This document shows positions 5,434 through 38,211 of a DNA stretch of 64,000 nucleotides, piece after piece. The DNA is taken from assembly GCF_030704685.1 (NCBI RefSeq), contig NZ_JAUZDX010000005.1, positions 248,001 to 312,000 of the forward strand, in the 5' to 3' direction. The number at the start of each line of letters is the position of its first letter. The first letter of the stretch is position 1. The position numbers and the translations under genes are program-made. This DNA is from Acidovorax sp. A1169. GTDB lineage: Bacteria > Pseudomonadota > Gammaproteobacteria > Burkholderiales > Burkholderiaceae_C. A model generated the notes under the pieces. The model made no database searches. It saw only the letters and a program-made list of their open reading frames with translations, and was not told where the DNA came from.

Positions 5434-6987
5434 TTAAGCGAACGACTTCTTGAACGCGGCGACAGCAGCGGTCAATTCGGCTTCAGCGTCCTTGTCCATG
5501 GCCTTGGCCTGTTCCAGCTTGGCCAGCAGTGCGGCGTGGCTGGTCTTCAGGAACTGGTGCAGGCCGTGTTCGAAGTCGAGAACCTTCTTGACGTCGATGT
5601 CGTCCATGAAGCCCTTGTTCACAGCGAACAGCGTGGCACCCATCAGCGAGATGGGCAGCGGGCTGTACTGTGCCTGCTTGAGCAGTTCGGTCACGCGGGC
5701 ACCGCGGTCCAGCTGCTTGCGGGTGGCTTCGTCCAGGTCGGAAGCGAACTGCGCGAACGCAGCCAGTTCACGGTACTGGGCCAAGTCGGTACGGATACCG
5801 CCGGACAGGTTCTTCACCAGCTTGGTCTGGGCGGCACCACCGACGCGCGACACCGAGATACCGGCGTTGATGGCGGGGCGGATACCGGCGTTGAACAGGC
5901 TGGTTTCCAGGAAGATCTGACCGTCCGTGATCGAGATCACGTTGGTAGGAACGAAGGCGGACACGTCGCCGGCTTGCGTTTCGATGATGGGCAGTGCGGT
6001 CAGCGAACCGGTCTTGCCCTTGACTTCACCCTTGGTGAAGGCTTCGACGTAGTCGGCATTCACGCGGGCTGCGCGTTCGAGCAGGCGGCTGTGGAGATAG
6101 AACACGTCGCCGGGATAGGCTTCGCGGCCTGGTGGGCGGCGCAGCAGCAGCGAAACCTGGCGGTAAGCCACGGCCTGCTTGGACAGGTCGTCATAAACGA
6201 TCAGGGCGTCCTGGCCGCGGTCGCGGAAGTATTCGCCCATCGTGCAGCCCGAGTAGGCCGACACGTACTGCATGGCTGCCGATTCGGAGGCCGATGCGGC
6301 TACCACGATCGTGTAGTCCATGGCACCGGCTTGTTCCAGCGCGCGCACCACGTTCTTGATGGACGAAGCCTTCTGGCCGATGGCGACGTAGATGCAGCTG
6401 ACGCCCTGGCCCTTCTGGGCGATGATGGCGTCGATGGCGACAGCCGTCTTGCCGGTCTGGCGGTCACCGATGATCAGCTCGCGCTGACCACGGCCCACAG
6501 GCACCATGGAGTCGATGGACTTCAGGCCGGTCTGCAGGGGCTGGTCCACCGATTTACGGGCGATAACGCCCGGAGCGACCTTTTCGATCACGTCGGTGAG
6601 CTTGGCGTTGATGGGGCCCTTGCCGTCGATGGGCTGGCCCAGGGCGTTCACCACGCGGCCAATCAGCTCGGGGCCGACCGGCACTTCCAGAATGCGGCCC
6701 GTGCACTTGACGGTGTCGCCTTCGGAGATATGTTCGTACTCACCCAGAATCACGGCACCGACGGAGTCGCGCTCGAGGTTCAGGGCCAGGCCGTAGGAGG
6801 GCTGGCCGTCCTTGGTGGCAGGGAACTCGAGCATTTCACCGGCCATCACGTCCGACAGGCCGTGCACGCGCACGATACCGTCGGACACGGACACCACGGT
6901 ACCCTGGTTGCGGATATCGCTGCTGGCGGCCAGACCTTCGATGCGGCTCTTGATGAGTTCAGAAATTTCTGCGGGATTGAGTTGCAT
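5434..6987 (-). CDS. atpA: ATP synthase alpha subunit (517 aa)
   Basis: Non-catalytic nucleotide-binding subunit of F1. It starts [17 protein letters not shown], the helix that binds the delta subunit. The Walker [10 protein letters not shown] is near residues 170-178, and the signature [17 protein letters not shown] with its arginine finger lies near 365-380. The ribosome binding site AAGGA lies 9 bases upstream. Spacing to atpG is 18 bases. Confidence 0.98.
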
Positions 6988-36489: not shown

Positions 36490-36918
36490 TCAGAAAGGCT
36501 TGACCACCACCAGCACCACGGCGGTCACCAGCAGCAGCACCGGCACCTCGTTGAACCAGCGGAACCACCGGTGGCTGCGGCGGCTGCTGCCATCGGCCAG
36601 CTTGCGCAGCAGCACGCCGCAGGCGTGGTGGTAGCCGATGGCCAGCACTACGATAGCCAGCTTGGCATGCATCCAGCCATTGCCCGGCCCGCGGCCAATG
36701 CCATAGCCCAGCCACAACCAAAGGCCCAGCGCCAGCGCCGGCACCGCCAGCAAGGTGGTGAAGCGCAGCAGCTTGCGCGCCATGAGCACCAGGCGCTCGC
36801 GCTCAGCCACCGAGCCCGGTGCCACCATGGCCAGGTTCACGAAGATGCGTGGCAGGTAGAACAGGCCGGCGAACCAGCTGGCGATGAAGACGATGTGGAA
36901 GGCTTTGACCCAGAGCAT
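36490..36918 (-). CDS. hemJ: Protoporphyrinogen oxidase HemJ (142 aa)
   Basis: Membrane heme-synthesis enzyme that oxidises protoporphyrinogen IX, belonging to the UPF0093/CopD-like group. Four hydrophobic segments are present. His8 and Arg24 in MLWVKAFHIVFIASWFAG and the following LPRIFV, and the GWMHAKLAIV motif (His84, Lys86), are the conserved polar residues. The full family length is about 140. hemB, two steps earlier in the pathway's precursor branch, is divergent 282 bases away. Confidence 0.92.
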   Translation of the reverse strand: MLWVKAFHIVFIASWFAGLFYLPRIFVNLAMVAPGSVAERERLVLMARKLLRFTTLLAVPALALGLWLWLGYGIGRGPGNGWMHAKLAIVVLAIGYHHACGVLLRKLADGSSRRSHRWFRWFNEVPVLLLVTAVVLVVVKPF

Positions 36919-36988
36919 GGCTGCAGTTTAAGGGAACGCTGAGCAAGTCCTGGCGACGCGCACGCACAGAAGGCCAGGCAGGCAAAGC

Positions 36989-37096
36989 CCAAAAAAAAGC
37001 CCGGCAAAAGCTGCCGGGCTTCGAAAGCCCTGCCCGCATTACGGCAGCCCAGGGCCCCGCTCAGGGAGGAAAAGCGGGGGACAGCAAGCTGCCCGC
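36989..37096 (-). ncRNA. Candidate small RNA divergent from hemB, with anti-Shine-Dalgarno loop (anti-hemB-like)
   Basis: A complete minus-strand transcription unit of about 105 nt without a reading frame. The promoter is at 37101-37129. The RNA starts near 37095 and folds into three parts. A GC-rich hairpin, CCCCGCU/AGCGGGG (37073-37079 and 37055-37061), has an 11-base loop that contains UCCUCC. A second stem is GCCCUG/CAGGGC. A terminator, AGCCCGGCA/UGCCGGGCU, is followed by eight U (36991-37020). I recall a class of sRNAs encoded next to and opposite hemB in Burkholderia. Position and architecture match, but homology is untested. Confidence 0.7.
36991..37020 (-). terminator. Rho-independent terminator of the hemB-divergent sRNA
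   Basis: A nine-bp stem (AGCCCGGCA with TGCCGGGCT), a five-base loop and eight T in the minus-strand direction. No protein-coding gene on this strand ends here, so it must serve a non-coding transcript. Confidence 0.9.
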
Positions 37097-37100
37097 AACC

Positions 37101-37129
37101 AATTTAGCACCAGCCTGCGGGGCATACAA
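37101..37129 (-). promoter_or_regulatory. Promoter of the hemB-divergent sRNA
   Basis: Minus-strand -35 TTGTAT at 37124-37129, a 17-bp spacer, and -10 TAATTT-like TAAATT at 37101-37106 preceded by TGC (extended -10). A plus-strand TTGACA at 37137-37142, possibly the hemB -35, lies only seven bases away. It has no good -10 partner. Confidence 0.65.
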
Positions 37130-37185
37130 GCAGGGTTTGACAACTCCGGCAGCAGCCCTCTCGCAGCCTTGGTGGGCGCGCTTGA

Positions 37186-38211
<1,026 letters not shown>

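Follow-up and report, generated by a model that had tools for sequence, protein, structure and literature searches.

Our analysis indicates that the region between the divergent genes hemJ and hemB in this Acidovorax genome encodes, on the minus strand, a member of the Rfam family RF02837 (anti-hemB), and that this member is probably an independently transcribed, intrinsically terminated small RNA of about 105 nt which would act in trans by masking Shine-Dalgarno sites. Computed here are its membership of the family, its own promoter and terminator, its covarying stems, the exposed CCUCCCUGA loop, and an order-wide presence at several genomic positions. Rfam already lists the family, and published work covers its expression in Burkholderia; the Acidovorax locus is a further member. 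We call the whole stretch of 64,000 nucleotides that was analysed the window.

Results

The core of the RNA (36991..37081, minus strand) matches the RF02837 covariance model over its full length, positions 1-81 of 81, with 66.7 bits against a curated cut-off of 49.5 and with an E-value of 2.1e-13. No other Rfam match in the 64-kb window exceeds its cut-off. Both the covariance score and the position, divergent from hemB, place the RNA in the family, which supports a suggestion made in an earlier, sequence-only reading of the window, namely that Burkholderia sRNAs encoded opposite hemB have their Comamonadaceae counterpart in this RNA. That reading had also named the betaproteobacterial toxic sRNAs (RF02278 in Rfam) as worth checking, and here the check came back empty, with no match over cut-off at the sRNA locus. 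Elsewhere in the same genome we saw one RF02278 match over cut-off (C1:136012-136074, in our locus set L091:1501-1563) and a weaker one below it (C56:80517-80590).

Promoter, RNA and terminator lie on the minus strand between hemJ (minus strand, 36490..36918) and hemB (plus strand, 37201..38211). The promoter has a -35 element TTGTAT (37124..37129), conserved in genus loci, and, after a 17-nt spacer, an extended -10 element TGCTAAATT (37101..37109), whose hexamer TAAATT at 37106-37101 is preceded by TGC. Taking the start from the position of the -10 element and the end from the U-run, we predict a transcript of about 105 nt covering 36990..37094. Its predicted fold has four hairpins: a 5' leader hairpin GGGCAG..CUGUCC (37079..37094); hairpin 1 with the anti-Shine-Dalgarno loop (37056..37078), marked out both by the fold and by covariation; a middle hairpin (37027..37055); and an intrinsic terminator of 12 pairs followed by T8 (36989..37022), evident in the sequence and in a terminator scan. 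The geometry described in the sequence-only reading, down to the extended -10 and the eight-U terminator, is thus reproduced. Its loop of hairpin 1 is indeed exposed and complementary to a Shine-Dalgarno site, but the 11 bases that it assigned to the loop (UUUCCUCCCUG in its register) become 9 nt in the predicted fold.

No listed open reading frame (of at least 30 aa) lies wholly within the unit, in agreement with the earlier observation, and a protein-coding gene of that size was rejected as a reading; on the minus strand, frames of 78 and 56 aa begin inside the unit and run on, and frames of 400 and 50 aa end inside it. The identities of the two flanking genes hold as well. The product of hemB, porphobilinogen synthase, matches PF00490 (E 6.8e-138) and NF006762 (508 bits, cut-off 297), and hemJ (UPF0093) matches PF03653 (E 8.9e-43), with a TIGR00701 score of 113 bits that stays below the cut-off of 138. 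Of 80 named hemB loci, a set that may omit very near relatives of the source genome, those of Comamonas testosteroni and Delftia tsuruhatensis encode the most similar HemB proteins (90% identity), a resemblance by which we would place the source genome in the Comamonadaceae.

Statistics on the single sequence are modest. By hand count the promoter matches the consensus at 7 of 12 positions, and it is absent from the promoter-scan output for the window; terminator-like sites number 3 against 1.8 expected; and the fold, at z = -1.98, is equalled by 8 of 200 shuffles. It is comparison that is decisive. Over the 28 genus loci that include hemJ as well as hemB, hairpin 1 has a mean pairwise identity of 0.96, TGnTAAATT one of 0.94 and the -35 hexamer one of 0.91, against 0.46 for the promoter spacer. 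The terminator (0.82), the 5' part of the RNA (0.78) and the middle hairpin (0.71) follow; the 11 bases 5' of the -35 element and the last 25 before hemJ are intermediate (0.61 each), the first 60 bases on the hemB side fall to 0.42, and the interval between the terminator and the box before hemJ is the least conserved part of all (0.24). Pattern searches recover the -35 element as TTGTAA/T/C or TTGCAT, and the -10 element as TG followed by TAAATT, TAGATT or TAAGTT, in 28 of 30 genus loci each, both missing L014 and L026. As far as sequence conservation can show it, the sRNA has a conserved promoter and terminator of its own.

For the loop and the stems we compared 143 copies, 130 of them distinct, made up of the 30 best-scoring from each of the genus, family and order sets together with 53 over cut-off from named loci. 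In this score-chosen set CCUCCCUGA is present in 130 of 130 distinct copies and CCTCCCTGAGC in 129; the one exception (L155) reads CCTCCCTGAAC, keeps CCTCCCTGA, and has the opposite stem base changed to match. This invariance is partly selected, since 90 of the 143 copies were taken as best-scoring and the other 53 are all over cut-off. Conservation of the loop extends beyond the anti-Shine-Dalgarno core and includes CUGA. In predicted folds CCUCCC is unpaired in all 130 distinct cores; when the sequences are lengthened by 22 nt, which gives 135 distinct ones, it is unpaired in 134, and by a loose criterion some hairpin stands 5' of the core in 132 of those 135.

Covariation was assessed for stem 1 and the foot of the middle stem on 69 representatives, with 500 shuffles and with slides of 1-3 columns. 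Pairs with changes on both sides number 8 against 3.5 in shuffles, and single cells with such changes 25 against 5.9 (sd 2.1), with lower values in all six slid versions; these counts include an outer pair, columns 4-28, which is mostly unpaired (50 of 66 cells). Paired cells make up 87.8%, none of the 500 shuffles reaches any of the five measures, and sliding lowers the paired cells to 28-57%. The compensatory changes that the sequence-only reading had asked for are accordingly present in the stems, next to a conserved loop. In the sequences compared, the stem varies under an apparent pairing constraint and the loop is constant in all copies examined.

Not every part of the RNA is kept in this way. 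The window RNA differs from other anti-hemB members in its diverged middle hairpin; the loop of that hairpin, GUGUGACAGC, is kept in many family members and is absent from the shown hemB copies of the source genus. The terminator loop of the window RNA likewise lacks CUCCCCUUU, a second CU-rich stretch which we observed in some Burkholderiales outside the family (L063, L067, L080, L119 and L128). It is absent in the source genus, and many family members conserve GUGUGACAGC in the middle loop instead.

The source genome carries a single RF02837 copy over cut-off. Across sampled genomes the family is over cut-off in 31 of 47 of the genus, 233 of 299 of the family and 190 of 300 of the order; at E 0.001 the figures rise to 41, 249 and 232, but the cut-off counts are safer, since 3 of 14 control genomes also match at E 0.001 and none of the 14 over cut-off. 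Among the 80 named hemB loci, 53 hold anti-hemB over cut-off (14, 15, 14 and 10 of 20 each), always divergent from hemB, in Burkholderia, Paraburkholderia, Cupriavidus, Pandoraea, Variovorax, Polaromonas, Ramlibacter, Roseateles, Sideroxydans, Gallionella and others. The distance to hemB is a few hundred bases in 51 of the 80 and about 1.5 kb in 2 Hydrogenophaga loci (L096 and L114). One of the 27 loci without a match, that of Giesbergeria (L143), carries a copy that has diverged but keeps the loop; the other 26, including Comamonas testosteroni and Delftia, gave no trace near hemB of any of three 9-base motifs, and there the sRNA is therefore dispensable or located elsewhere.

In the genus the sRNA adjoins hemB in 29 of 30 loci and has hemJ directly downstream, on the same strand, in 28; in the window hemJ starts 73 nt beyond the Rfam core. 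By a hand grouping of the 53 named loci, the downstream gene is hemJ or the next gene of the hemJ cluster in 26, engB facing the sRNA in 23 (EngB/YsxC by TIGR03598 on one representative), and other or undetermined in 4. Of the 30 family loci with the best scores, 13 have neither hemB nor hemJ within the fetched stretch. In 11 of these 13 the sRNA is preceded, on its own strand, by an RlmL-like gene, in some cases with a PIN gene in between (each of the two identified on one representative), and the genes beyond vary. Since copies occur beside such differing neighbours, a role in trans is the reading that fits all genomic positions.

The complement of the loop UUUUCCUCCCUGA is UCAGGGAGGAAAA, a Shine-Dalgarno sequence. 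Upstream of the starts of 50 open reading frames in the window, the loop paired no better than did 30 shuffled versions of it (median -5.4 kcal/mol, against -5.27 for the shuffles), a comparison weakened by the mechanical choice of starts. The pattern CAGGGAGGAN{2,9}ATG occurs at 2 sites in the source genome (one being L174) and at 0 in the control. The other site belongs to a candidate target, a 142-aa membrane protein (L178), which has CAGGGAGGAAAA before its ATG, a perfect match of 12 nt with a predicted energy of -20.9 kcal/mol. Only 10 of its 23 genus homologues keep GGGAGGAAA, and the protein has no match in 23 of 47 genus genomes.

Copies of the RNA, or of parts of it, also appear on mobile DNA. 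A phage contig of 5,961 bp (IMGVR_UViG_3300016484_001244, L176) with terminase, portal and endolysin genes has an RF02837 match over cut-off (5670-5739, 53.7 bits) directly behind a DNA methyltransferase gene, and a second contig of the viral collection (L175:9925-9948) has the same hairpin and then a terminator, below the Rfam cut-off. The Comamonas resistens plasmid pZM22-2 (L177:2999-3080) has an exact 25-nt match to hairpin 1, then a further hairpin and a terminator; this anti-hemB-like RNA, known by its hairpin sequence rather than by an Rfam score, sits between genes of the abortive-infection family and for a metallophosphoesterase, near a BglII-type restriction system. One genome (G132) has six RF02837 matches, three of them in one 19-kb stretch (L264, at 4008, 17556 and 17737) with genes for StbB, a lytic transglycosylase, a phage-type integrase and an AAA ATPase, the last with an OLD-like TOPRIM match below cut-off, and an extra copy (L266:3019) lies near a gene for a ParA-like ATPase, whose CbiA match is below cut-off. 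These surroundings suggest that the extra copies in multi-copy genomes spread on mobile elements.

Such copies are rare in the collections, which were searched with short queries and at low sensitivity. A strict pattern run over the whole viral collection returned only the two contigs above, and a looser one with 15 fixed bases returned 64 stretches, near chance by a rough estimate; of these, the two contigs already given by the strict pattern were inspected. A blastn search with the phage copy among 50,697 phage records found no real copy and one record matching the terminator part only, and searches of 72,556 plasmid records gave pZM22-2 as the only copy, besides a Cupriavidus oxalaticus plasmid that matches the terminator part only.

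Discussion

The closest published counterpart of the window RNA is ncS04, the anti-hemB RNA of B. cenocepacia (Burkholderia RNA 7), for which a length of 105 nt by 3' RACE and Northern blot, binding to Hfq, and no significant change in the seven conditions of Table 2 of that report are given (PMC5688073); B. pseudomallei is also listed with anti-hemB (PMC3521395). The "anti-hemB" of another paper (PMC6515984) is an antibody rather than an sRNA. The window RNA shares with ncS04 the full model match, the loop, the terminator, the orientation divergent from hemB and, as predicted, the length of 105 nt, and differs in having hemJ downstream where Burkholderia-type loci have engB.

Does the RNA regulate the genes beside which it lies? 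An action in cis on hemB, whether as an antisense RNA or through interference from the sRNA promoter, is hinted at by the name of the family and by the proximity of the two genes in nearly all genus loci and most named ones, and a review gives hemB as a predicted target of the B. cenocepacia sRNA Bc7 (PMC6321483). We nevertheless consider it improbable. An AAT-type -10-like box stands directly 5' of the hemB ATG in all 29 genus loci that include hemB (window 37180-37201), and because this box abuts the ATG, the hemB mRNA should start beyond the sRNA gene and should lack a Shine-Dalgarno site. The predicted duplex of the loop with hemB, moreover, reaches only -6.2 kcal/mol, and in the family loci described above that have neither hemB nor hemJ the RNA is present all the same. 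Despite its name, anti-hemB is most likely no antisense regulator of hemB. The other neighbour calls for the same question, since the claim of the sequence-only reading that the terminator cannot serve any protein-coding gene does not hold as worded: in most of the genus hemJ follows the terminator directly and on the same strand, and the RNA could in principle be an attenuator or riboswitch-like leader that stops transcription or lets it read through into hemJ. This we regard as highly improbable, given that hemJ has a conserved TAAACT box of its own a few bases 5' of its ATG in 28 of 28 genus loci (window 36918-36940), from which its transcript would start, that the interval between the terminator and this box is the least conserved of the locus, and that engB facing the sRNA is the next gene in 23 of the 53 named loci. 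Taken by themselves, the two boxes suggest nearly leaderless mRNAs for two heme-synthesis genes.

We therefore prefer masking of Shine-Dalgarno sites in trans, most likely with Hfq, because the loop complements such sites and because of what has been reported for NfeR1, S17 and ncS04. The sRNA would act in trans, probably together with Hfq; several mRNAs would be bound by its loop at their Shine-Dalgarno sites (GGGAGG and neighbours); ribosomes could then not start, and the target mRNAs would decay. Beyond the exposure of the loop, each of these steps is proposed by analogy, as the likeliest mechanism. NfeR1 is reported to silence ntrB through anti-Shine-Dalgarno loops by a block of translation (PMC10746234), and S17 to repress BP2158, its single-stranded sites having matches in 70 of 91 de-repressed genes (PMC11722255). 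The role in binding mRNA leaders, and in the control of translation or growth, that the sequence-only reading had envisaged is a proposal that fits the loop and the behaviour of these published CU-rich and anti-Shine-Dalgarno sRNAs. Against this, the conserved loop might be a binding site for Hfq, the ribosome or another RNA, a decoy rather than a seed for mRNAs. The conservation beyond the anti-Shine-Dalgarno core, CUGA included, would suit a decoy, as would the lack of a deeply conserved mRNA partner for the one candidate that was followed; we give it little credence, since the core simply complements Shine-Dalgarno sites and mRNA targets have been proven for analogous loops.

Like the window RNA, the double-hairpin RNAs RF02278, S17 and bdhR1 have CU-rich single-stranded stretches complementary to ribosome-binding sites, but they belong to another model, which the window RNA does not match, and its fold has four hairpins. 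NfeR1 and alpha-r14 (the "cuckoo"-like RNAs) are described as carrying a conserved, unpaired anti-Shine-Dalgarno motif CCUCCUCCC on varying stems; they are alphaproteobacterial and Hfq-independent and have three identical motifs. The window RNA is no member of that group, which has CCUCCUCCC in each of three hairpins; it has one such loop, UUUUCCUCCCUGA.

How might the mobile copies be connected with such a mechanism? A tentative extension, which we think unlikely as a whole, is that anti-hemB is a translation-control sRNA with a universal loop rather than a regulator of hemB, that some phages, plasmids and integrative elements carry their own copies, which mask the Shine-Dalgarno sites of the host, and that the near-leaderless hemB and hemJ would be immune to it.

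More generally, anti-hemB is widespread (190 of the 300 sampled order genomes) and is reported to be expressed and bound by Hfq in B. cenocepacia, yet our search of the literature, with most subscription journals outside its reach, found no published function or mobile copy. The comparative data presented here disfavour the two obvious readings in cis, narrow the question to one short loop, and draw attention to a few copies of this RNA on mobile DNA.
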